The notes beneath the pieces are model-generated. The model ran no database searches and had not been told where the DNA came from. It was given only the letters and a program-made list of their open reading frames with translations. A DNA stretch of 46,834 nt from Chloroflexota bacterium. GTDB lineage: Bacteria > Chloroflexota > Anaerolineae > UBA1429. Below are positions 22,589 through 40,103 of this stretch, in pieces. The position numbers and the translations under genes were made by a program. The stretch lies in NCBI GenBank assembly GCA_012729455.1, contig JAAYDC010000017.1:1-46834 (forward strand), read 5' to 3'. Position 1 is the stretch's first letter; each line of letters starts with the position of its first letter.

Positions 22589-25587
22589 GGGGATGACAGA
22601 GATGGCTCGCTGAGGTGGAGAAAACCCTCACTAAAGGCCGCCGGGAAAATGAAAGCCTTGACCTTGAACTCGGCGCCGAAATCGACGCGGATAATATCGC
22701 CCTCGATGGCGCTCACCACGCCGCGCCCAAAGGAGCGATGATAGACAGGTGTGCCCTCCGCCACGCCCGAGGTATCCACCACGACATGCAGGCGCGCGGG
22801 CGCTACAGGCGCAGCCGGTTTAGCAACGGGCGGCGCCGGCGGAGGCTGGTGGGCTGCTGAGGAGCTCGCCTTGACTTGCGGTGCGGGGGCAGAGGCGGAC
22901 GGCGCCGAGAGGCTCTCTAGGGCATCCTCGGATTGCGCACAAGCACGCGGCGAGCGAACCACCAGCATGGCTTTGTCCTCATCTTCATCCTCATCCTCGT
23001 CGCTCACTTCAGGCGGTGGCGCATCCGGCAGCTCGCGAGCGAGGTAGCCGTCAAAGACCATTCCCGCCTGGCGCGAGCGGTCCAGTTCCTCATAGTCCTC
23101 AGCGCTCAGCACCGTATCATAGAGCCCCACGGGCTGCTTTTTGTGGCGGCTGGGCAGGCCGGTATATTCCAGCGAGTCATCCTCATAGCGCTTGAACTGG
23201 TAAACGGCATCGTTCATCAGCGGGGCGTTAAAGACGTTCAGTTCGCACAACAGGTTAAAGTCTTTGACCTCCAGCCCCGTGACGCGCTTGAACAGGCCTG
23301 GCTCGAGTTGGGTGATGACATCCTTTAGGCTATGTTCGCGGAAATCCGTCAGATACATAAAGATGGGGATGCGCGTGGCGAACTTGATCAGTTTCGTCTG
23401 GATCTCTTTGCGCTTGGAACGATATTCTTTTTCTTCGTCAGAGAGGTGCTTGAGTTCCTGCGGGCTGCGCTCGACGCCATCTTTGCGGGCGTTTTTGACG
23501 GCTTCGGACTTGGAGATGATCGTACGGATATCGCTGTTCAGGCTGCGAAAGCCCTCGATGCGCATCAGGGCGTCCAGGGCGGCTGGGGTTTCGAGCAGAC
23601 GCCTGAGCACCTCATCAGTGACGTTCACCAAGAGGGCGCTCTCCCAACGCTTGGCCAGGAGGGTCGACGTGGTGCCCGAGACGACCAGATCGAGGATGCC
23701 GGCAGCGTCGACCTCTTTCATCACAAAGCCGTCGTAGGCGAGCACTGGTAAAAACTTGATAAACTCAGCCACGCGCTTTTCGGGGTTGGGCTCGCTGACG
23801 TTCAACTCGCTGGCATAGCGTGAAAGCAACTGCAGGGCGCGGTCGAGCGCGAAATCAAACAAATAGCAATCATGTTTGATGATCTCTGATTTCCCATTTT
23901 CGTCCTCGACGACCCAGGGGCTCTGCGCGCGAAAGGCAGTCTGAAAATAGGTCTCTGGGCTTTTTAGGTTGCGCAGCATAAACACGCCCGACCAGGGCGG
24001 CACCGTCACACCGGTGGTCAGCTTGCCGCAGCTGAGCGTGATCGTCCGCGAATGCAGTGGATCACCCATCGCCTCCCACACCGGCGGTAAAGCCGCAACC
24101 CCTATCCCTGCTTTGGTGCCGGCAGCCACCACGATGTTAAAATCGTGGAAAAAGGCGTTCTGACGGCTGCGCAGCAGGTTTGCCATAGCATGGCACGAAG
24201 CCACATCCGGCAAGAGCCACAGGGTGTGAGTGAGCGCCTCCAATAACCTCACGTCGCCAAAGGGCATCGGCGGGCGGCCGCGCCCCTGCCTGAGCTGATC
24301 GGTGGCGCTTTCTAGGGCAGCTCCGCGGATCAGGTCGAGCCACTTTTGTACATCGTCGGCGTGTTCGAACTTGGCATTCTTTCCACGGCCGCTGGCCTTG
24401 AAGAAGAGGTTCAGGTCAAACTCGTTGAATTCGCCCTGCAGCGCGATGCGGGTGATCTCTTCGGGGATGCGGTAAGTGAGCATCACCATCCGCGGGAGCG
24501 CGGCATAGGGGTTATCGGGCCCCACCCAGGCGGCCTTGGCGCGCTGCTCGTCGCCATAGGTCCACGAATAGACCTGCTCTTCGATAAACTCGCCCGAGCT
24601 GAGCGAGCGAAAGGGAGTGCCCGAGAGGTGCAGGTAGGCGTAGGCTGTGATCGGCAGCCAGGTCTCGTTGAGGGCGTTGCCGCGATCATAGGTATCCGGG
24701 TCGGGATCGGCGATCTCGTCCTCATCGCCGCGGTCAAAAAGCGCTTGAGCCGTCTCGCGCCAGGCGCCAAAGTGATACTCGTCAAAAATCACCAGATCCC
24801 AGTTGGTCGTATGCACCCATTCGTTGTGCGGCTTGATGCTCTTGGTACGCTTGTCGTAGCCCATGAAATCCTGGAACGAGCCAAAGCAGACGATCGGCCT
24901 GCTTTTATCGGCGCGTTGGTACTGTAAATCGATGCCGTCATCACGGGCACGCGTCGGCCGGGCGACAAACTGCCAGCCCTCAAAATCAACATGCTGCTCG
25001 AGGTCGGATTGCCAGGCGGATTGCACGGCGGGTTTAAAGGTTAATACCAGCACCTTGGTGTAGCCCAGGCGCTTGGCCAGCTGGTAGGCGGCAAAGGTCT
25101 TGCCAAAGCGCATCTTGGCATTCCACAAAAAGCGCGGGATGCGCCCAGCAGCCCGTTCGCGCTCCAGGTAAGCGGCGGTTTTTTCCACGGCCTTTCTCTG
25201 CTCGGGGCGCATGCCAAAGGTGAGGGTGCGGTTTTCGGGGTTGGAGTGGCCTTCGCGCACCGCCACCCAGGCGGCGCGCACCTGATCGGGGGTACACGCG
25301 AACCACTCGCCCTCCTTGCGGACGATCCCGCGGTTTACCAGAGCTCTATGGACTTCGTAGTCTTTAAAGGTAGAGCCGTCGCTGCGTATGGCCGGCTCGC
25401 GAAAGACGACCTTCCAGGGCCGGCCGCCCGGCAGCTCCACCGGGTATTGCTCGGCGACGCGCTCATCGCCCCCGCGGGTGGTGTAGCCAACCCTGAGCAA
25501 GCCGGGATAGTTGACGTCGCTGTAGGCATAGACGGTAGGCGCCAACTCAGGGCGCGGAGAAACATATTGATCCAGCAGGTCAGTCAT
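22585..25587 (-). CDS. GIY-YIG-like nuclease / superfamily 2 helicase fusion (restriction-like)
   Basis: 1000 residues. Residues about 18-100 resemble a GIY-YIG/T5orf172 nuclease: VYAYSDVNYPGLLRVGYTTR, then YEVHRAL and GEWF. The helicase has motif I AKMRFGKT (157-164), DEYH (269-272) and SGTPF (322-326). The second RecA half carries LTTGVTVPPWSGVFMLRN and YFQTAFRAQSPW. An acidic run (DEDEDEDEDK) and an Ala/Pro-rich linker lead to a tail, VYHRSFGRGVVSAIEGD, like the small beta domain of DUF3553/UvrD tails. The start overlaps the methylase stop by 8 bases, so it is the third gene of a minus-strand operon. The predicted role is DNA translocation and cleavage in a restriction-type defence system. 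Confidence 0.8.
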   Translation of the reverse strand: MTDLLDQYVSPRPELAPTVYAYSDVNYPGLLRVGYTTRGGDERVAEQYPVELPGGRPWKVVFREPAIRSDGSTFKDYEVHRALVNRGIVRKEGEWFACTPDQVRAAWVAVREGHSNPENRTLTFGMRPEQRKAVEKTAAYLERERAAGRIPRFLWNAKMRFGKTFAAYQLAKRLGYTKVLVLTFKPAVQSAWQSDLEQHVDFEGWQFVARPTRARDDGIDLQYQRADKSRPIVCFGSFQDFMGYDKRTKSIKPHNEWVHTTNWDLVIFDEYHFGAWRETAQALFDRGDEDEIADPDPDTYDRGNALNETWLPITAYAYLHLSGTPFRSLSSGEFIEEQVYSWTYGDEQRAKAAWVGPDNPYAALPRMVMLTYRIPEEITRIALQGEFNEFDLNLFFKASGRGKNAKFEHADDVQKWLDLIRGAALESATDQLRQGRGRPPMPFGDVRLLEALTHTLWLLPDVASCHAMANLLRSRQNAFFHDFNIVVAAGTKAGIGVAALPPVWEAMGDPLHSRTITLSCGKLTTGVTVPPWSGVFMLRNLKSPETYFQTAFRAQSPWVVEDENGKSEIIKHDCYLFDFALDRALQLLSRYASELNVSEPNPEKRVAEFIKFLPVLAYDGFVMKEVDAAGILDLVVSGTTSTLLAKRWESALLVNVTDEVLRRLLETPAALDALMRIEGFRSLNSDIRTIISKSEAVKNARKDGVERSPQELKHLSDEEKEYRSKRKEIQTKLIKFATRIPIFMYLTDFREHSLKDVITQLEPGLFKRVTGLEVKDFNLLCELNVFNAPLMNDAVYQFKRYEDDSLEYTGLPSRHKKQPVGLYDTVLSAEDYEELDRSRQAGMVFDGYLARELPDAPPPEVSDEDEDEDEDKAMLVVRSPRACAQSEDALESLSAPSASAPAPQVKASSSAAHQPPPAPPVAKPAAPVAPARLHVVVDTSGVAEGTPVYHRSFGRGVVSAIEGDIIRVDFGAEFKVKAFIFPAAFSEGFLHLSEPSLSSP

Positions 25588-27091
25588 CGCTGGCCTCCAT
25601 CGGGCGGATCATCGATTCGATAAAGGCGATCTCGTCCTCATCCAGGCCATACTTGGCGTAAAGCTCGGCGTCGCTCCAGGGTTTGGAAAAGTCCTGCATG
25701 GGGACAAAGGAGTATGCTTCTCGTGTTATATGTTGAGACACAGCAATCTGACTCACCAAAAACCTAGCAAAGCGTGTGAGAAGATAGCTGCGCATATTCC
25801 AAGCGTCATTTTCAGTATCAAAAGCTCCTGCTATCAAGTAAGTCTCGGAACAGATGGTTTTTGGTGGTAGAAGCTCAATTGTCGATAGTACACGATACAT
25901 ACCGTTCTTGTCCGGCTTACCTGCATGCTCAGAACTGAGGTACGAGATCATAACCTTCCACTTGTTTATTAGTTCTTTGCCAGAGGTTACTTTTTCAATG
26001 GGAAATGGACCTGTACCCTTATTATATCTCAACAACAAGTCACCCTTTTCTGGCCGCACATTTGTCGCCAACCCAAATGGCTTTCTTGCTGATACTATCT
26101 TGTCCATAGTTACAGGCTGTGTTTTGAGAACTTTTCTAATAATGTTTTCCGCCATTGGATGCCGGATAAAAGTATCAAACTCATTAAGTTCTTTACATAC
26201 CGTAACGCTATTATTGTTGAATATACTAGTAAATTCACACAAACCCCGATGATCTCGATCCCATAGAAAATAGCAAATGCCCCCAGCTACATCAACGCCA
26301 GGGAAGCAATCTGTAGAATTAGGATAGTCTACAAGAGCGCGTATCCGGTTATCATTAAGCATTGCGGTTCTGAATGCACGGAGGCCTTTGCCACCTGAAT
26401 ACCATCTAGCAGGTATAATAAACGAAATAAAACGAGGCTTTAACTTCATAGACTGCTCAACAAATAGTTGGTATATTGGTTTAGCGCTTGCCTTATTCCC
26501 CCCATCGCTCAGCTGGTACGGCGGGTTGCCGATGATCACATCAAACTTCATATCAAAAATCCTCTCGGGGTGTACGGTGTGTAAAAAGGCATAGGCGTGG
26601 CTCTCGAGCTCCTCGGGGCGGTCGTACTGGCTTTGCGAGGCCCCGCAGAACACGCAGCGGCCATCCAGCCACTGGTGCGGCTGGCGCTGGTAGTGGATAT
26701 TGCCCTCGGCGTTCTCAAAGGCCGAAAGGCTATAGATGCTGTTGGGGTACTTGCTGCCATACAGGGTGCGGCGCGTCATCAGCGAGGTGATCTCGGTGAT
26801 GGCGATGCCGTACAGCTGGCGCTGAAAGATATGGTCGACGCGTTCTTGCAGATCGGGGATGGTATCCTCAAGGCCTACGATCAGGCGCTTGGCGATCTCG
26901 CGCAAAAAGACGCCCGTCTTGGTGGCGGGGTCTAAAAAGGTGGTCTCGGGGCTGCGAAAGAGCTCGGGCGGCAAGAGGTCGAGCATGTCGTTAACCACTT
27001 TGGGCGGGGTAAAGACCTCGTCGCTGGAGAGGTTGGCCAGGCACGAGAGCACGTCGGGGTTGTAGGCGATGCGCGGCGCAGCCATACTCAT
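25580..27091 (-). CDS. Eco57I-like N6-adenine DNA methylase with AT-rich recognition region
   Basis: 503 residues. Motif I is variant, LDPATKTGVFLREIA (about 53-67), and the catalytic NPPY is at 189-192 (FDVIIGNPPYQLSDGG). Between them lies WLDGRCVFCG, possibly half of a metal site. From about residue 204 to 450 the sequence is the likely target-recognition domain (FIIPARWYSGGKGLRAFR, SYLSSEHAGKPDKNGMYRVL). The DNA of that part (about 25740-26480) is visibly AT-rich, while both flanks are GC-rich. It lies 4 bases after the first methylase-like gene and overlaps the helicase. It predicts modification of an unknown site. Confidence 0.85.
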   Translation of the reverse strand: MSMAAPRIAYNPDVLSCLANLSSDEVFTPPKVVNDMLDLLPPELFRSPETTFLDPATKTGVFLREIAKRLIVGLEDTIPDLQERVDHIFQRQLYGIAITEITSLMTRRTLYGSKYPNSIYSLSAFENAEGNIHYQRQPHQWLDGRCVFCGASQSQYDRPEELESHAYAFLHTVHPERIFDMKFDVIIGNPPYQLSDGGNKASAKPIYQLFVEQSMKLKPRFISFIIPARWYSGGKGLRAFRTAMLNDNRIRALVDYPNSTDCFPGVDVAGGICYFLWDRDHRGLCEFTSIFNNNSVTVCKELNEFDTFIRHPMAENIIRKVLKTQPVTMDKIVSARKPFGLATNVRPEKGDLLLRYNKGTGPFPIEKVTSGKELINKWKVMISYLSSEHAGKPDKNGMYRVLSTIELLPPKTICSETYLIAGAFDTENDAWNMRSYLLTRFARFLVSQIAVSQHITREAYSFVPMQDFSKPWSDAELYAKYGLDEDEIAFIESMIRPMEASDD

Positions 27092-27094
27092 CTC

Positions 27095-27835
27095 TTAGGC
27101 CTCCTCGGGGGCGATGATCTCTAGGTAATGCACCACCTTGAACTCGGCCACGCGGCGCCCCTCGCTATCGTCGGCGGTGTCAGCAGGCTCGGGCGTGCCA
27201 AACAGGCTCAGCTGAGTCTCGGCGGGCGCGGCCCTCTCCAGCTGCGGGCCCGGGTCGGGCGTGACGGCGGGCGGGTTCAGGAGCTCGGCAAGGGTCCAGT
27301 CGGTGCGTTTGATGCGGCGGCCTGCCAGGTGCGCTCCCCAGTGCGAAAAGACCAGGGGCTGCCCGCGGCTATCCAGCAGGCTGAGGGCATCGCCGCACAG
27401 GATGTTGCGCTCCAGCACATAGCGCACAACCGCGCGGCATGCCTCGGTGGCCTCTTTTTTGTTGTTGGCGCTGTATTGCGTATTCCAGGTGTCGTACAAG
27501 CGTGACCGGCACTCGGCGGCGTTATCCTCCAGCAGCTCGACGCCGTACACGCTCATGACGGCAATCACCGACCAGAACTCGAAATCGGCGCGCCGGCGCA
27601 CGCCGCCATAGCGCTTTTTGACCACATCCAGCTTGCGCTGCAGGATCGGCACCAGAAAGTTGCCCGTGCCGCAGGCCGGCTCGAGAAAGAGGCTGTCGAT
27701 GCGTTCGGTCTGCAGCTTTACCAGGTCCAGCATGGCGTTGACCTCGCGCTCGGCGGTAAAGACCTCGCCGTGCTCGGCAACACGTGCTTTGGATTTGACC
27801 TGCGGGTTCATCGGTTCGCTTTTCTCGGGGCACAT
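27095..27835 (-). CDS. DNA-methylase-like SAM-binding protein without NPPY
   Basis: 246 residues. SLFLEPACGTGNFLVPIL (about 49-66) is a textbook motif I of N6-adenine DNA methylases, preceded by a conserved GEVFTAEREVNAMLDLV segment. The protein then ends with no NPPY/DPPY catalytic motif, so it may bind SAM or act only together with the next gene product, which has NPPY. Pro-rich residues near 195-225 form a linker. The promoter lies at 27879-27907. M9 (27811) is an alternative start. A decayed copy of its 5' end is found 3.4 kb upstream. Confidence 0.75.
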   Translation of the reverse strand: MCPEKSEPMNPQVKSKARVAEHGEVFTAEREVNAMLDLVKLQTERIDSLFLEPACGTGNFLVPILQRKLDVVKKRYGGVRRRADFEFWSVIAVMSVYGVELLEDNAAECRSRLYDTWNTQYSANNKKEATEACRAVVRYVLERNILCGDALSLLDSRGQPLVFSHWGAHLAGRRIKRTDWTLAELLNPPAVTPDPGPQLERAAPAETQLSLFGTPEPADTADDSEGRRVAEFKVVHYLEIIAPEEA

Positions 27836-27985
27836 CCGCGTGGTAGGGTGCGGGTGTGTTTGATACCTAGCTGAACAGACGTTATCCCACTGTTAACATT
27901 TTGTCAACCTTTGTTATTAGCCACCCCCGCTCTTTCTGCTGCGCTATCCTAACCCTCACAATGTAGGAGAAATTGCAGACGCTTT
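27664..27985. repeat. Left copy of long direct repeat flanking the 28-31 kb cassette
   Basis: This segment covers the 5' end of the methylase-like gene, its promoter and the leader beyond it. It matches 31132-31420 in the same orientation. Clear shared blocks are GACCTGGTxAAGCTGCAGACC, CGCATCGACAGCCTCTTT, TTTTCTCGGGGCACATCC and GCTCTTTCTGCT (read on the appropriate strands). The likeness is imperfect, with indels, so the duplication is not recent or came from a diverged relative. Confidence 0.65.
27879..27907 (-). promoter_or_regulatory. Promoter of the restriction-like operon
   Basis: On the minus strand TTGACA (27902-27907), 17 bases, then TAACGT (27879-27884), with the expected start near 27872, about 37 bases before the first ATG. 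The region from here to about 27985 is duplicated at 31.33-31.42 kb. Confidence 0.55.
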
Positions 27986-28020
27986 TATGCTGAAAGCCGT
28001 ATGATAATGAGTGTTAAGGC

Positions 28021-29778
28021 TCATCCTCTCCAATTCGGATTGAACGCCGAGATATTGCTGCCGTCCAATGAAAGCATTCGGTAGTAATTAACCGTGTACG
28101 TCTCCTCGTTTACCTTTTCGTGGCCGGTCATACTCATCGCGTGGAATTCCGGCAGATCCAACACTACCCCGTTGGTATCCCACGAGAAGAACCCCTCGGC
28201 TCCTGCCTGCTTCATCCGCCGTGCGATTCCCGGATATTCATGCGGCGACACGGTATGCTCCCAGGGGAATGCCGCATAGAATTTCACCCCGTATTTTTTA
28301 CAGATCGGCAGGTATTGCGGGATTCCGTCGAGAACCCTGTCCACATCCGTGTCGTGATTCCGCTTGATGATATAGTCACGACCAAGCTTTTCTTTATACC
28401 GTGCCAGATCGATGGTGCCGTCCTCACGCAGGCAGCCCTCCAGATCCTCAAAGGTCTCCATATTGCTCTGCAGGATTTCGTCGATCAGCCCCTCTCTCGC
28501 CCAGGTTTCCACATCGAGCCCGAAATGCCTGGCGGTTTCCGGCGTGTATTCCGACACCACATTGATCTGCATGCGTTTTCCGGCCGCTTCATCTAGCGCC
28601 GCCCGGAGCTTGCGCATGAACTCTGTCATGAACTCGCACCAGATGCCGTTTAAACGGTCGTCCTTGACAGGCAGGACAAAGGGATCCACGCCCGGATGCC
28701 TTTCCTCAAAGCGCCGTATGACCGGTTCCTCGAACGCGATGTGCAGTCCCCGATGCCAAAGCAGCGTAAACCCGTCAAAGCCGTATTGCACATACTCTTT
28801 CAGCGTGTCGATCACATACGTCTGCACTTGCTCAAAGGCATAGGAGCAAACCTTGACCGTGCTGCCGTCGCGCATGACGGCGTAATACTCGGGATGATGA
28901 TTCGCAAAAGCCAGCTGAAACGCCGGACTCGTAAACGGCGTCTGAAAGCTCGCGACGCTCATGCGGTTCGCCGCGTAGACTCGAATGCCGTGCCGGTGCA
29001 GAAAGTCAATCCTCAGGGCATAAGCCTTCTCACGGTTTTCGTAAAAGAGCCGGTTTCCCCGCAGGTTGCATTCCGCCGACACCGTCAGAAGCGCCGCGTC
29101 CTCGTCGTCGGTGGACGTGAGGAATGCCTCGTTATCGATGTCTCCCGAAATCTCCATCGAGAGCTCTGATATATCCGTACCGCACAGCGGCATCTCTTTT
29201 ACAAGCAGCTTTTCGGAATCCACAGACTGGTCAAAGGTGTTGCGGTCGCCGTCCACATGCCCGTGGATGCACGCGGTCGCCGATGTATCATGATACGCCA
29301 GGTATTCGGCTGTTTCCTCCTCCGTCATCGGCACGCAACGAATCCACAGCAGGCAGCAGGCGTTTCGTACCAGTTCAATGCGCGCCGGCTTGGATAGGAT
29401 GATGTCTTCGCCCGTCAGATCGGCGCTTTTCCAGTAGAACTCTTCTGCAAATTCCGTCGGGCACCATCTGTGCCGATGTTCGCGGAACGGCGATCTCAGC
29501 CCCGTAAAGCCTTCGTCTCCCGTCAGCTTCAAGTACATGTAGTTTTCGCTGCGCAGATTCAGCACCGCTACGAATATCTTGTGCCAGCCCCGCAGCCCGA
29601 GCTTGAACCTGATATCCTCTGGCGATGTCAGTTCGCCCGCCGCAAGAGCCGTGCCCTGCACCTCTCCCGTCTCATACGGCATCGCGAGCCACCTCGTTCT
29701 ACTCCCCCTTGGGGATACCGCGTCGGGCTTGGCCACAATCTCATCAAGTCTGCTGAAAACGATGTCTCTCGTTTCCAT
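28021..29778 (-). CDS. Glycoside-hydrolase-like TIM-barrel protein, uncharacterised
   Basis: 585 residues, no signal peptide. Residues about 1-150 look like a beta-rich accessory domain. From about 245 a barrel-like domain follows: IDFLHRHGIRVYAANRMSVA, YVQYGFDGFTLLWHRGLHIA, VEPVIRR-type helix, YGVKFYAAFPWEHTVSPHEY and GAEGFFSWDTNGV. This resembles GHL10/DUF187-type putative glycosidases, but I cannot name a family or point to the acid residues. The ATG has GAGGAGAAATGTA upstream. Codon use is less GC-biased than the neighbours. It sits with a broken glycosyltransferase gene between two direct repeats, so it is probably imported. Confidence 0.6.
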   Translation of the reverse strand: METRDIVFSRLDEIVAKPDAVSPRGSRTRWLAMPYETGEVQGTALAAGELTSPEDIRFKLGLRGWHKIFVAVLNLRSENYMYLKLTGDEGFTGLRSPFREHRHRWCPTEFAEEFYWKSADLTGEDIILSKPARIELVRNACCLLWIRCVPMTEEETAEYLAYHDTSATACIHGHVDGDRNTFDQSVDSEKLLVKEMPLCGTDISELSMEISGDIDNEAFLTSTDDEDAALLTVSAECNLRGNRLFYENREKAYALRIDFLHRHGIRVYAANRMSVASFQTPFTSPAFQLAFANHHPEYYAVMRDGSTVKVCSYAFEQVQTYVIDTLKEYVQYGFDGFTLLWHRGLHIAFEEPVIRRFEERHPGVDPFVLPVKDDRLNGIWCEFMTEFMRKLRAALDEAAGKRMQINVVSEYTPETARHFGLDVETWAREGLIDEILQSNMETFEDLEGCLREDGTIDLARYKEKLGRDYIIKRNHDTDVDRVLDGIPQYLPICKKYGVKFYAAFPWEHTVSPHEYPGIARRMKQAGAEGFFSWDTNGVVLDLPEFHAMSMTGHEKVNEETYTVNYYRMLSLDGSNISAFNPNWRG

Positions 29779-29856
29779 TACATTTCTCCTCGTAGAAAAG
29801 TTCGTTTTCCTGCCTTCAGCATTTATCTGATACCAGGGGTATCAGCACCACCAGTG

Positions 29857-31069
29857 TTACAAACCGGACTTGTCCATCGCTTTTTTGATCAATCTCACAG
29901 CTTCCTCTACACCTCTTTCTTCTCTGATTTTAGCAGAGAGCAAGTCCACGTTCTTTTTCTTTTCCTCATAAGTGCTTTTCATTTCCAATAATGCTTCTCG
30001 TATTGAACTGGAGCACAAATCTTGATTTTAGAGGCTTTGTCGCAACATTAATATCGTACAGTTGCCTGGCAAATCCCATTTGGTCCAGAATATGCGGCAC
30101 TGGAATGGACGGAATACCATAAATGATTGAAGCTGCTGAAGTACCAAACCCGCAGTGATGAATGACAAACAGACACTGCCTGAAAAGAAAGCTATGCGGA
30201 ACACTTCCGCATGAAATCATTGTTTGTGGTAACTCATAAGCCTGGAGTGTCTTCTGAAACCCTTGGATAATGGCTCGATATCCCAGTTCATCAAAAGCAC
30301 TCACAAACATATCCAGTTTTTCTTTATTAGATTCTGCTTCAAATGACATCGCTCCGAGAGAAAGAAGTATTGGTTTTTCTCCGCCTGCAAGAAAAGCAGC
30401 CAGCTTTTCGTCGGGTATATATTCTTTTTCATCATCGTACCAATAGCCGGTCAAAACGTGATGCGCTTCCCAATATGGATTTCGCTCTAAAACATACTTG
30501 CTGATAGGAATCAAATTCAGTTTACGGGAAATAATTTCGTCGGAAGATTGAAGCGGTTTCAATCCATATACCCGCCTGATTTTGTTATATGGTTTGGCCG
30601 TTTGTTTTCCGATTATCCTGCCAATCAGCTTATTCCAAAAGGTTTGAGGCTTTAGTTTTTCGGCGATCATCTCTTTCTGCAAAGTCACATTAACCGTAGG
30701 AATTCCAAGGACTTGAGCCTCTGTTGCACCCATTTGACTATGGCTTACAACGATTAAATCCTTGCCCTTGCATACATTGTAAATTTCGTTTGTTGAATTA
30801 TGAATCATTTTGAAAACGAAATTCATCATTCTGAGCATACTTAATACAGGATTTGAGGTTTTCCCTCTGATAATGGCCGCCTCTTGTTCGATATCAATAT
30901 CCGGACCAATCGGCTCAAAATGAATATTGGAATCCTCAACTAATTTTCTCCAACAGGAGTGTGAGCCAAGTGTTACGTCATATCCGTTTCTGATAAGTTC
31001 TTCAGATAAAAAAATATATGGCTGAATATCACCTCTTGTACCCATTGTAAACATAGCAATCTTGTTCAT
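29857..31069 (-). pseudogene. MGT/UGT-type glycosyltransferase with C-terminal frameshift
   Basis: The intact part gives 367 codons: MNKIAMFTMGTRGDIQPYIF is the GT-B N-terminus, and SLGAMSFEA, CGSVPHSFLF and HHCGFGTSAASIIYGIPSI form the UDP-sugar-binding C-terminal half. Near 30017-30024 the frame slips. The displaced frame continues with DLCSSSIREALLEM, then SAKIREERGVEEAVRLIKKA, to a TAA at 29857-29859, which is the normal end of this family. One extra A, or two lost, explains it. The present frame stops early at 29966. It may be a true mutation or a sequencing error. GAGGAG precedes the ATG. The DNA is markedly AT-rich and Clostridia-like. Confidence 0.8.
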
Positions 31070-31131
31070 TATCAGCTCCTCTATATCTAGATTGCCTGCT
31101 AATTACGATTCGTTGCTGCGTTACTTACCTG

Positions 31132-31290
31132 TGACATCCTCTGCGCAAGCCGCCTCGTAAAAGAGGCTGTCGATGCGTTAGGTCTGCAGCTTGACCAGGT
31201 CCGCACGGGGCTGACCTCGTGCTCGGCAACACGTGCTTGCGATTTGACCTGCGGGTGTGGGTTCATCGGTTCGGTTTTCTCGGGGCACAT
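31132..31290 (-). pseudogene. Decayed 5' copy of the methylase-like gene
   Basis: The minus-strand reading begins MCPEKTEPMNPHPQVKSQAR, nearly the same as the intact gene at 27835 (MCPEKSEPMNPQVKSKAR). A deletion of about 30 bases and frame changes follow. In DNA the likeness continues through the codons for LVKLQTERIDSLF and into the start of motif I near 31132. It cannot make a methylase. A promoter-like CTGACA, 17 bases, TAATAT survives upstream (31331-31359, minus strand). Confidence 0.8.
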
Positions 31291-31420
31291 CCACGTGGTA
31301 TGGTGCGGATGCGTTTGATGCCTCGCCTGGATATTATCAAAAAACTACCAGCTTGTCAGCGTTTCCTCTTGCCCTTCTTCGCTCTTTCTGCTAGGCTATT
31401 CGTAGCCTCACAGTTAGGAG
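31132..31420. repeat. Right copy of long direct repeat flanking the 28-31 kb cassette
   Basis: This copy carries the methylase remnant, its promoter and the leader up to the ribosome-binding site of the zinc-ribbon gene (ending CTCACAGTTAGGAGGACG). The left copy ends CCTCACAATGTAGGAGAAA. Together the copies suggest an ancestral order of methylase (minus) and zinc-ribbon gene (plus) sharing one divergent promoter region, later split by the cassette. Confidence 0.65.
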
Positions 31421-31427
31421 GACGCGC

Positions 31428-32207
31428 ATGTTCTGTACCCAATGCGGCAATCCCATCACCGCGCAGTACCGCTTTTGCGGTAGCTGCGGCGCCCGGCTGG
31501 CACAGCCGCAGCCACAACCACAACCACTACCGCAGCGACAACCACAGTCACAACAACTGCCGCAGCCGCAGCCACAGCGACAACCACAACCGCAGCCACA
31601 GCGACAACCACAACCCACCGTACACCCCGCAGTAGCGGCAGCGGCGGCACGGCGGGAGGCAGCGATGCAGGCTCAGCAGCAGGCAGCGGCGCAGGCGCAG
31701 AGCCGCCGGGCATCGGGCGAGACGCCTTATTGGGTACTGCGCTGTACCCGGCAGGACAGTTTTTTCAAGGCAACCGAGATGGCACTGGTCTTTTTCTCCG
31801 ACCAGCTGGTGGTGGCGACGCTCAGCAACGAGCTGCACAAGCGCTTTATCGCCCAAAAGGATATTGAAAACAAGGCCACCGGCCGCGGATTCATCCGCGG
31901 CGGATGGAACAAGGTGGCTGGCTGGATGATCTATCACCAGAGCTATATGCGCGCCACGGTTGAGGAAGTCCTGGCGGATGACCCCAACAACCTTGCCGTG
32001 CCCTATCGCGCCATCCAGGAGCTCAGGTTTGAGGCTTTTCGTCAGGAGAGCGACGATGATGGCACTACCACCTACGGCGGCAAGCTGCACCTTACGTTAG
32101 TGGGCCAGGGCAAGGTCAAATACACGCATCGGCAAGAGCACGAAGGTCGCATCCAAAACCTGCTGTTCAGTCTGCTCGGCCCCAGGCTGGTCTATAAGAA
32201 GCGTTAG
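31428..32207 (+). CDS. Zinc-ribbon protein with Pro/Gln repeat linker and PH-like domain
   Basis: 259 residues. Residues 3-22 are a zinc ribbon, CTQCG ... CGSCG. Residues about 26-63 are a low-complexity PQPQ/RQPQ stretch, followed by an Ala/Gln-rich helix to about 95. The C-terminal 160 residues (YWVLRCTRQDSFFKATEMAL, VPYRAIQELRFEAF, GGKLHLTLVGQGKVKYTHR) look like a bacterial PH-like beta domain. Function is unknown; zinc-ribbon proteins of this plan are often membrane- or complex-associated. The start has GTTAGGAGGACGCGC. A related protein lies at 34471. Confidence 0.7.
   Translation: MFCTQCGNPITAQYRFCGSCGARLAQPQPQPQPLPQRQPQSQQLPQPQPQRQPQPQPQRQPQPTVHPAVAAAAARREAAMQAQQQAAAQAQSRRASGETPYWVLRCTRQDSFFKATEMALVFFSDQLVVATLSNELHKRFIAQKDIENKATGRGFIRGGWNKVAGWMIYHQSYMRATVEEVLADDPNNLAVPYRAIQELRFEAFRQESDDDGTTTYGGKLHLTLVGQGKVKYTHRQEHEGRIQNLLFSLLGPRLVYKKR
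31501..31620 (+). repeat. Low-complexity CARCCR coding repeat
   Basis: About 120 bases built from CAACCA, CAGCCA and CAGCGA hexamers encode the Pro/Gln/Arg linker of the zinc-ribbon protein. Such tracts vary in length by slippage. There are no spacers, so it is not a CRISPR array. Confidence 0.85.
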
Positions 32208-37249: not shown

Positions 37250-37327
37250 CGTATTACCTCACAGGATGCGCCGCACCGAGCGCTGGCTCAAGTCCGGCGC
37301 AATACCTGTAAACGACTTTTGGTCCCC

Positions 37328-37356
37328 TTGACGCTCCACCTACCGCATGTTATGCT
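37328..37356 (+). promoter_or_regulatory. Promoter of leader RNA copy 1
   Basis: TTGACG (37328-37333), 17 bases, TATGCT (37351-37356). The same -35 and a near-identical spacer occur before copy 2, where the -10 is TATTAT. Confidence 0.7.
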
Positions 37357-37362
37357 CATTCT

Positions 37363-37454
37363 CAGATAGCTTTTGGATGCCGCAGGACGGTTGGTGGGGA
37401 TCGTTCTATTGGCAAGTCACCAGCCGGATGCGCCTGCATCTGGCTGTTTTGTTT
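37363..37454 (+). ncRNA. Leader/small RNA copy 1, upstream of the GH106-like gene
   Basis: About 92 nt between a promoter and an intrinsic terminator. The terminator is AGCCGGATGC (37422-37431), loop GCCT, GCATCTGGCT (37436-37445), then GTTTTGTTT. An alternative helix, GGTTGGTG (37389-37396) with CACCAGCC (37418-37425), overlaps the terminator's 5' arm by four bases. A second copy at 39916 conserves both helices, with changes that keep pairing. I recognise no known riboswitch. It may be an attenuator for the next gene or a separate small RNA. The remaining 170 bases before the gene contain one arm of a 15-bp inverted repeat. Confidence 0.65.
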
Positions 37455-37566
37455 CCAAAGGCAAGCTCTGCGTTGTTAACGGATATGACCCATTTCAGGT
37501 AACAAAATAATAGAATAAAGCGCACAGCAAATCAAATAGCCGAAAGCTATACCCGGTGTCAATAGT

Positions 37567-37627: not shown

Positions 37628-39733
37628 ATGAGCATTATCGAGAAATACGGCAAGAGCTTTGCAAACCCCGACAGACGGAACGCGATCTATCAGATAATCC
37701 ACGGCGGCGCTGTGGACAAAGAAAAGGCTGAATATTACGACTCACGCTGGTTCGGCGGCATCGTGGGCAACGTGCCATATACATCAGAATTCCCCGATTC
37801 TGACGAGGAATGGAATGACACCGCAGCGGGGATACGCGAGTATATCCAGCGGGGTATGTATACCTGGCTTTACGATGAAAAGGGCTATCCCTCGGGTACC
37901 GCCGGCGGCTATGTCACTGAGTTTAACCCCGAGTATGTGGCAAAGGGACTCTACTGCTACGACTACTGGCGCAAGATCAGCGGTCCGAGCACGTATCGCG
38001 CCGACGTGCCGGGAGACAAGCTTTGGAAAGCGCTCTTGCTGCCGGTGGAGGGGGGAGATCCAATCGATGTCACCGACTGCCTCAACGAGCGGGGGGTGCT
38101 GTATATAGAGGTTCCCGCCGGACAGTTCTACCTCTTTATGATGAGTATTCGCCGGCTCTTTGACGGCACCCATGCCACCGAGAGCTACTCTGAGCCGCGC
38201 AACTATATAAGCCTGTCCGACCGCAAGGCGGTGCGCGAGTTTATCAACTGTACCCATGAGAATTACAAAAAGGTGCTGGGCGACGAGTTCGGCAAGGGCG
38301 TTCTCGCCATGTTCACCGACGAACCCTCTCTTATATCCTGGAATATCCGGGCGGGTGTTTTCCCGATCCTGCCCTGGCTTGACAGCTATCCCGCCGACTT
38401 TGAGGCGAAATATGGCTACGAGTTTTACAAGGCATGCACAGCGGTGGTGCTGCGCCGAGGGGACGATGCCGTCAAGCGCCGCTGCGACTTTTGGGAATTC
38501 ATCGCCGACACGATTGCCGACAGCTACTTTGGACAGATCCAGGACTGGTGCCGGGCTAATAACCTCAAATCCTCGGGCCATATGCTGGAGGAAGAGCGGC
38601 TGCAGGCGCACGTTAACAACTATGGCTCGTTCTACCGTTCAATGAAGCGCTTTGACTGGCCGGGCATAGACCAGCTGGCCACCGAGACCTCGGCACTTAT
38701 GCGTGACGGGACCATCCCTATCGCCCGCTTTATAGCCTCCTTTGCCGATATAAACGGCGAACGCGAGGTCTTTACCGAGTTCTCCGACCACAGTGTCAGA
38801 GAACGTGGCGACCGGGCAGAGCTTGGTTGTTACTATGGCTCGGTCAACTGGCATCTTGCTATGGGCGTGAATAACTTTACAAGCTATTATTCCTGGGACG
38901 GCATAACCAAAGAAGAGACCCGCGAACTCAACCGCTATACAGCGCGTTCCGGCGGGCTGCTCAGGATGGGCAGCCGCGACAGCCGCGTGGCTCTGTTCTA
39001 TCCTGAGGCGGCAATGTGGGAAAGCTATATCCCCAACACCAACGTCCGGGCTATCGATTATTCAGAGGCGACACAAGCGCTTGATGATGCCTTTGCCCAG
39101 GCGTCCTGGGATCTCGTCCAGCGTCAGATAGACTTTGACTATATCGACTGCGCGCTGCTGCTGGAGGGCGAGATACAAGACGGACGGCTTATCTACCGCG
39201 ACCGCGCCTATTCGGCTCTGGTTCTGCCCTGTGCACGGGTGCTTGAGGAAGCGGCGATGGCAAAGCTGCTCGAATGCGAGGCGGCAGGAATTGCCATACT
39301 CTTTTGCGGTGAAGCGCCCAGGCTCTCCCGCGAGACCGGCGTCACATCGCCGGCCGCCCTTGAAATTGCCGATGCTATAGAGAAAGGACGCATGGCGCTT
39401 GCTCCCACAGAGGATTTTGGCAAGCTGCTTGATGCCAAGCTGCCCAGAATCTGCCGCACATTGAAAATCGAAAACGAAAAGGGCTGCTACCATCCTATGC
39501 TGCTATCCCACTGCCGTGTCACCGATGATGGGGAGCGGGTGATCTATCTTGCCAACATGGACAGCGTACCCTTTACCGGCAGACTGACAGTTGACGGCTG
39601 CTGTGCTGAGGCGGTGGAATGCGATGCCTTTACCGGCGAAATGACGAAACTTGACGTTGACGGGAGGCTGTCGCTGGATATAACCATACGCCCCGGTGAG
39701 GGACGTTTCTGGCTGATTGCCGGGAGGAAATAG
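37628..39733 (+). CDS. GH106-like glycoside hydrolase (putative alpha-L-rhamnosidase)
   Basis: 701 residues, no signal peptide. WLYDEKGYPSGTAGGYVTEF (about residues 79-98) matches the conserved core of GH106-type rhamnosidases and related uncharacterised families. Further blocks are MFTDEPSL (possible catalytic Glu), SSGHMLEEERLQAH and FTEFSDHSVRERGDRAELGC. C-terminal beta strands (RVIYLANMDSVPFTGRLTVD) form an accessory domain. The protein is shorter than typical secreted GH106 enzymes (over 1000), so it may be a separate cytoplasmic group. The ATG follows GAAAGAAGGTGCGAAT. It is less GC-rich than its neighbours and sits between duplicated leader RNAs, so it is probably an inserted gene. Confidence 0.65.
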   Translation: MSIIEKYGKSFANPDRRNAIYQIIHGGAVDKEKAEYYDSRWFGGIVGNVPYTSEFPDSDEEWNDTAAGIREYIQRGMYTWLYDEKGYPSGTAGGYVTEFNPEYVAKGLYCYDYWRKISGPSTYRADVPGDKLWKALLLPVEGGDPIDVTDCLNERGVLYIEVPAGQFYLFMMSIRRLFDGTHATESYSEPRNYISLSDRKAVREFINCTHENYKKVLGDEFGKGVLAMFTDEPSLISWNIRAGVFPILPWLDSYPADFEAKYGYEFYKACTAVVLRRGDDAVKRRCDFWEFIADTIADSYFGQIQDWCRANNLKSSGHMLEEERLQAHVNNYGSFYRSMKRFDWPGIDQLATETSALMRDGTIPIARFIASFADINGEREVFTEFSDHSVRERGDRAELGCYYGSVNWHLAMGVNNFTSYYSWDGITKEETRELNRYTARSGGLLRMGSRDSRVALFYPEAAMWESYIPNTNVRAIDYSEATQALDDAFAQASWDLVQRQIDFDYIDCALLLEGEIQDGRLIYRDRAYSALVLPCARVLEEAAMAKLLECEAAGIAILFCGEAPRLSRETGVTSPAALEIADAIEKGRMALAPTEDFGKLLDAKLPRICRTLKIENEKGCYHPMLLSHCRVTDDGERVIYLANMDSVPFTGRLTVDGCCAEAVECDAFTGEMTKLDVDGRLSLDITIRPGEGRFWLIAGRK

Positions 39734-39860: not shown

Positions 39861-39880
39861 GTAAACGGCTCGAGATACCC

Positions 39881-39909
39881 TTGACGCTCTACCTGCCGCG
39901 TGCTATTAT
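39881..39909 (+). promoter_or_regulatory. Promoter of leader RNA copy 2
   Basis: TTGACG (39881-39886), 17 bases, TATTAT (39904-39909). A TATAAT one turn further is an alternative -10. Spacer and -35 match copy 1. Confidence 0.7.
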
Positions 39910-39915
39910 AATAAT

Positions 39916-40015
39916 AGTAATATTAAAATAGCTTTAAATGCCGCAGGACGGTTGGTGGGGAATCGTTCTATTGGCAAGTCGCCAGCCAGACGCGCCTGCG
40001 TCTGGCTGTTTTGTT
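39916..40015 (+). ncRNA. Leader/small RNA copy 2, upstream of binding protein 3
   Basis: About 100 nt. The conserved core GCCGCAGGACGGTTGGTGGG and TCGTTCTATTGGCAAGTC match copy 1 almost exactly. The terminator is AGCCAGACGC (39984-39993), loop GCCT, GCGTCTGGCT (39998-40007), GTTTTGTT. The alternative helix is GGTTGGTG (39950-39957) with CGCCAGCC (39980-39987). Relative to copy 1, one terminator pair changes from T-A to C-G and a G-U becomes A-U, so both arms changed together. Beyond it lie a Shine-Dalgarno-like AAAGGAGG near 40021 with no start codon, then the real one before 40104. Confidence 0.65.
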
Positions 40016-40103
40016 GCCACGAAAGGAGGCGCCTATTCCAATTCATTGATCCTTCTCGCGCTCGTACCGCACTGTTTGACTCACATAAAGGAGGAAAAGA
40101 CTG

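Follow-up and report, generated by a model that had tools for sequence, protein, structure and literature searches.

Insertion with long target duplication was reportedly described by Nobusato et al. in 2000 for restriction-modification (RM) genes in Helicobacter. In the accessible portions of three papers that cite this process (PMC1643837, PMC3874152, PMC3031569), a cargo lies between direct copies of its landing site of about 100 bp or more, RM genes are involved and a transposase is not needed; in those cases the cargo consists of the RM genes, and a sister strain shows the empty site. A laboratory counterpart comes from Escherichia coli, in which 56 of 60 Lac− recombinants gave a polymerase chain reaction product marking target duplication, with lengths of 109-950 bp in the 14 that were sequenced; the available sections of that paper explain the duplications as a single crossover of circularised linear DNA (PMC3240628). 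Related routes, as outlined in the parts of the texts at hand, are homology-facilitated illegitimate recombination, which displaces modules in Vibrio type VI clusters (PMC5361080), and transformation-driven tandem duplication (PMC3784515). Here we describe a locus on contig C13 (JAAYDC010000017.1) of a Chloroflexota genome (2.64 Mb in 30 contigs, 99.2% complete); the whole contig, 46,834 bases, is the window of this study. The 5' end, leader and promoter region of M1, the methylase-like first gene of a DrdVI-like RM operon, stand there twice in the same orientation, on either side of a cassette with a glycosidase-like gene and a glycosyltransferase gene, and a zinc-ribbon gene adjoins the right copy. 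A homology-anchored insertion that duplicated its target would explain this layout and is, with moderate confidence, its most likely cause.

The repeat covers about 300 nt, comprising codons 1-55 of M1, the M1 leader and the intergenic DNA up to the zinc-ribbon gene. Within the window the copies (Table 1) aligned at 72.6% identity over 307 columns (E = 4.6e-46), and a search of the complete 2.64-Mb genome with the left copy returned these two places only at E ≤ 0.001. Exact genome matches of GCTCTTTCTGCTNNGCTAT were likewise confined to the two copies. Both copies run into native sequence on their outer sides and abut the cargo on their inner sides. The alignment confirmed the duplication of the methylase 5' end, promoter and leader in one orientation that the first-pass annotation had proposed, and the likeness exceeds a promoter motif, since M1 coding sequence is included. 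The limits of the repeat had to be adjusted, as the right copy begins at 31144 rather than 31132 and the left copy extends to about 27969 rather than 27985. The claim that the left copy retains the intact methylase, with the right copy adjoining the zinc-ribbon gene, was borne out by the sequence layout. The M1 coding section of the repeat contains 12 mismatches in 141 aligned sites, and the right copy additionally carries a 24-nt deletion (8 codons, in frame), a 6-nt insertion (two codons), a 1-nt deletion and an in-frame stop. There are 6 mismatches in the 36 sites of the leader section and 33 in the 99 sites of the zinc-ribbon side (67% identical), which is still clearly homologous (local score of 60 versus a maximum of 35 in 2000 shuffles).

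Functional homologues brought together by transfer are expected to differ mostly at third codon positions. The 12 coding differences between the M1 copies were distributed 6/3/3 over codon positions 1/2/3, 9 of the 12 were non-synonymous, and 3 of the 47 third positions differed (P = 0.0017 for so few third-position changes if 70% are expected there, the 70% being our own choice). Because the differences are spread evenly over the codon positions, the coding copies were nearly identical when they were formed, after which the right copy, by its sequence a pseudogene, decayed freely. The decayed methylase reading frame listed in the first-pass annotation does exist, with a different span that crosses into the cassette, and its stop lies about 30 nt upstream of the glycosyltransferase start. 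In the M1 direction, the promoter-like hexamers read TTGACA-17-TAACGT in the left copy and CTGACA-17-TAATAT in the right copy, with diverged spacers. A promoter scan reported the right site, not the left one, and gave 3 sites in the region versus 4.0 in shuffles; a promoter of the right copy facing the glycosyltransferase is thus suggestive only. When read by eye in the zinc-ribbon direction, TTGCCC-17-TAGGCT is present in the right copy, whereas TGCGCT takes the place of the second hexamer in the left copy.

Table 1. Features of the repeat, the cassette and the adjoining genes in the window
Feature	Coordinates	Strand	Basis or remark
Left repeat copy: M1 codons 1-55, leader, promoter region, up to the former zinc-ribbon ribosome-binding site	27670..27969	-	alignment, genome search
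Right repeat copy: decayed M1 5' end and promoter region still serving the zinc-ribbon gene	31144..31420	-	alignment, genome search
Relic open reading frame (ORF), 63 amino acids (aa), beginning at the former M1 start codon and reading through the junction into cassette sequence	31099..31290	-	ORF list
Promoter-like site CTGACA-17-TAATAT, right copy, facing the cassette	31331..31359	-	consensus match only
M1, intact methylase-like gene, 246 aa, gene 1 of the DrdVI-like operon	27095..27835	-	weakly MmeI_Mtase-like, just below the Pfam cut-off
M2, Eco57I-type methylase, 503 aa	25580..27091	-	Pfam
HEL, T5orf172 and ResIII helicase protein, 1000 aa	22585..25587	-	Pfam
Zinc-ribbon gene, 259 aa, served by the right copy	31428..32207	+	ORF list
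Glycosidase-like gene, 585 aa, cassette	28021..29778	-	no Pfam family; Oscillospiraceae relatives
Glycosyltransferase, GT28/MGT-type, 40% GC, frameshift near the 3' end	29857..31069	-	ORF 29966-31069; C-terminal part continues in another frame

The proposed course starts from M1 and the zinc-ribbon gene as divergent neighbours, which would have had about 130 bp of intergenic DNA in common. DNA with the sugar genes, fused to a nearly identical stretch of the target, may then have integrated through a single crossover, in the simplest case as a ligated circle, and would have left the order target copy, cargo, target copy. On the outer flanks, intact M1 survives to the left and the zinc-ribbon gene to the right, and the right M1 end, no longer used, has decayed. 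The left copy lacks the second hexamer of what would be the zinc-ribbon promoter, and the M1-direction promoter of the right copy would now point at the cargo, such that both neighbours stay unbroken and the cargo may have gained a promoter. Direct target copies of about 100 bp or longer around a cargo, the hallmark of insertion with long target duplication, are present here (about 300 nt, 73%). Near-identical copies with native flanks outside, as left by a Campbell-type integration, are seen for the coding part, and an excess divergence remains on the zinc-ribbon side. The window case works like insertion with long target duplication; we do not insist on membership, because the cargo is not an RM gene complex: the RM gene with its promoter is the target and the sugar genes are the cargo. 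As far as the available text describes it, the E. coli integration shares with our locus the single crossover and the insert flanked by a partial target duplication, but it involved a laboratory plasmid with a designed homology arm (PMC3240628). The Vibrio modules, according to the same kind of partial text, are similarly anchored at one homologous end and leave stumps of resident genes; there, however, a conserved upstream region serves as the anchor and older effector genes are displaced, whereas the resident gene is intact here.

Relatives of M1 were found in 22 of 396 genomes of the class, including the genome studied here (E ≤ 1e-8), and in 11 of 400 genomes of the phylum (E ≤ 1e-10), the two sets overlapping. 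A total of 25 regions were compared: the window, four from new phylum genomes and 20 from the class. The class regions came from 19 of the 21 further genomes that had a match, leaving out G179 and G333. A decayed copy including the 5' part of an operon gene was present in five of the 25 regions (the window, L097, L098, L100 and L101). The stump derives from M1 in the window and in L098, and from HEL, twice, in L097; in L100 the 5' part of M1 is fused to the 3' part of HEL, and a fusion of the same kind in L101 lies downstream of the operon with toxin-antitoxin-like genes in between. These fusion stumps (L100 3861-4076, L101 9854-10128) stand beside an intact gene or operon, and the one in L100 forms an open 71-codon frame. 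The order in L097 is HEL stump, Fic gene, second HEL stump, YhcG-type nuclease gene and intact HEL. The first of these stumps runs over the M2 stop in much the way that HEL joins M2 in L099 and L121, so that it occupies its native place. This shows the order of events in L097: the cargo came later, with a new HEL start behind each cargo gene. When 705 kb were scanned, direct repeats 150-6000 bp apart that pair the 5' part of a gene with a stump were detected in the five regions and in L107; the scan was post hoc, on regions mostly picked for M1 and without control operons, and ORF starts were approximate. We tentatively, and with low confidence, propose that DrdVI-like operons are repeatedly entered at their gene starts, where modules (sugar genes, Fic, YhcG nuclease, antitoxin genes) might arrive by start-duplicating insertion. 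The resident gene would receive a fresh 5' end, and its old start, sometimes with the promoter, would be left as a stump able to drive the newcomer; the operon would take in and feed its neighbours and never be broken.

Four regions showed other arrangements. In L107 (10503-10729 and 11877-12104), a HepT-like/nucleotidyltransferase pair stands between an intact PARG-like gene and a 228-nt stump (92%) of its 5' end. A DarT plus macrodomain gene lies between M1 and M2 in L091 (7937-9109, by Pfam), and the same holds for L096 (10420-11595, by ORF likeness). Direct repeats of about 113 nt (88%) flank a distant M1-HEL-M2 operon in L106 (1178-1291 and 9823-10185).

Several observations weigh against a target-duplicating insertion, both in the window and as a recurrent process. 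Divergence on the zinc-ribbon side exceeds what a doubled coding rate would give (P = 6e-5); the excess could stem from a different allele in the incoming DNA or from later local replacement. A donor circle must have contained a near-identical segment of the host, and a search of 72,556 plasmid and 50,697 phage records gave no circular donor with the cargo and a target copy. Neither an empty site nor a zinc-ribbon orthologue was found in 14 other genomes of the family or in the 396 class genomes, sets that contained no member of the genus concerned. The first-pass annotation had suggested a single crossover or a duplication plus insertion; the geometry agrees with this, and the empty site and circular form were looked for and not found. 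As regards recurrence, 20 of the 25 regions are without such a stump, although in several the contig breaks off near M1, and five have M1 fragments only. The second HEL stump of L097 differs from the intact gene at 3/3/9 sites by codon position. Because these differences are mainly at third positions, its incoming start came from a diverged allele, unlike that of the window, and the parallels need not share one mechanism.

The same final picture results from a single crossover and from a tandem duplication followed by insertion. Slippage or unequal crossing-over could have duplicated the promoter region or the whole operon first, with foreign genes arriving later between the copies and the intervening DNA being lost; the stumps of L100 and L101 join the 5' part of M1 to the 3' part of HEL, which is what an internal deletion in a copy of the operon would produce. 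We nevertheless consider this order of events unlikely, as it requires two or more events at one place, and in L097 the stump is in its native place and each stump has a single cargo gene, an arrangement for which insertion needs one step each. Less probable again is a serial replacement, in which a complete, older RM operon once stood beside the zinc-ribbon gene and has left only the right copy, the present operon and its upstream region being later arrivals. Isolated 5' remnants of M1 in L103, L104, L107, L108 and L109 are in line with such replacement, but the few third positions that differ between the copies speak against a long separate evolution, and there was no other trace of an older operon in 27972-31143. 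A common promoter motif, or chance, might be invoked for the zinc-ribbon half given its low identity; it was ruled out by the E value of the alignment, the coding sequence within the repeat and the absence of a third genome copy, and its probability is negligible.

A homology-anchored insertion would make the locus a readable fossil of cargo entry, in which both neighbours were spared, the cargo came to lie behind a promoter and the RM gene was the target, not the cargo. Gene movement by target-duplicating insertion is known but rarely followed; the window case is ordinary in kind, and the interest lies in the recurrence within a single RM family. If this recurrence holds in a larger, unbiased sample, DrdVI-like operons would be a natural record of gene entry without transposases or integrases. 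Literature searches for insertions into defence operons, or for promoter duplication by single crossover, returned nothing, a weak negative given the rare word combinations used.

The cargo itself is probably composite. The glycosidase-like gene, so named in the first-pass annotation, had no Pfam or NCBIfam match; its two matches among named genomes (38-39%) were both from metagenome-assembled genomes of Oscillospiraceae, a weaker relative (27-37%) was present in G006, one of the 14 further genomes of the family, and the protein had no match in the plasmid collection. The best relative of the glycosyltransferase in that collection, 67% identical, is encoded on pCY186 of Butyrivibrio proteoclasticus B316, beside a VirD4-like conjugation gene, and this identity together with the 40% GC makes the glycosyltransferase look foreign. 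Because their nearest relatives belong to different families, the two cargo genes probably arrived in separate steps. The earlier description of a foreign cassette with an AT-rich glycosyltransferase therefore stands for the origin and composition of that gene, but not for the joint arrival of both genes, nor for the integrity of the glycosyltransferase, which is frameshifted. At the DNA level, one plasmid record (the Butyrivibrio plasmid) resembled the cassette, in the glycosyltransferase part only, and the cassette was absent from the phage records searched. A phage origin was rejected, as single-protein patterns, whose reach is limited to close relatives, found no relative of M1, the glycosyltransferase or the zinc-ribbon protein in viral contigs. 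A transposon, insertion sequence or integrase element was likewise discarded (no integrase or transposase among the ORFs and no paired inverted repeats at the cassette ends), as was a tRNA landing site (no tRNA in the window). No RNA family reached the gathering threshold in the window, and the matches in the cassette were at chance level.

A 123-bp piece of contig C25 is 80% identical to the glycosyltransferase and lies inside a 3-kb AT-rich island (L030 7763-10728). The island, with GGGG at both edges, splits a gene that reads by eye as an aldo-keto reductase, and it contains the glycosyltransferase fragment, a RepA_N replication-protein fragment and GNAT-like and YegP-like ORFs (the last two by eye). 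It also has two copies of a 106-nt end-like sequence, and GAGGRTGTCATAATNATGCTAA from this end occurred in two copies only at ≤3 mismatches, both in C25. A shared element between the C25 end and the right end of the cassette is not claimed, as the likeness amounts to about 10 nt plus scattered bases.

The RM operon on the minus strand has the gene order M1-M2-HEL, which is also that of the DrdVI system on pDrdVI (46%, 45% and 53% identity for M1, M2 and HEL, respectively), and we class it as DrdVI-like from this comparison; the same repeat test showed no duplication at the pDrdVI operon. M1-2.DrdVI is given in the available part of its description as a type IIG enzyme producing N6-methyladenine (6mA) in GCAGCC (PMC6430315), and the methylation specificity of the system in the window could possibly differ from this motif. 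Sequence comparison yielded no solved structures resembling M2 or HEL. The C-terminal two thirds of M2 (25561-26620) are AT-rich, with 45% GC versus 65% GC for M1 in the same operon, as if partly exchanged. Both contig ends (1-1920 and 44881-46820) are also AT-rich (42-43% GC); one end carries MTHFR and LysR genes and the other a second glycosyltransferase and a LuxR-type gene.

Two other duplications were noted in this genome. Within the window, a 159-nt element, which by eye consists of a promoter-like site, a leader and a terminator-like hairpin, occurs at 37308-37457 and 39861-40019 and at no other place in the genome, the two copies being 78% identical. A GH106-like gene (37628-39733) lies between its copies and a solute-binding-protein gene follows. 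The architecture is the same as that of the M1 repeat; common regulation of two genes would be another explanation. On contig C10, part of a TIR/NTPase-like defence gene is repeated as a decayed 187-nt copy (78%; L056 8787-8973 and 9261-9447, corresponding to C10 228787-228973 and 229261-229447). This copy sits between an apparent guaA 3' end and the intact gene, with mismatches of 18/14/15 by codon position.

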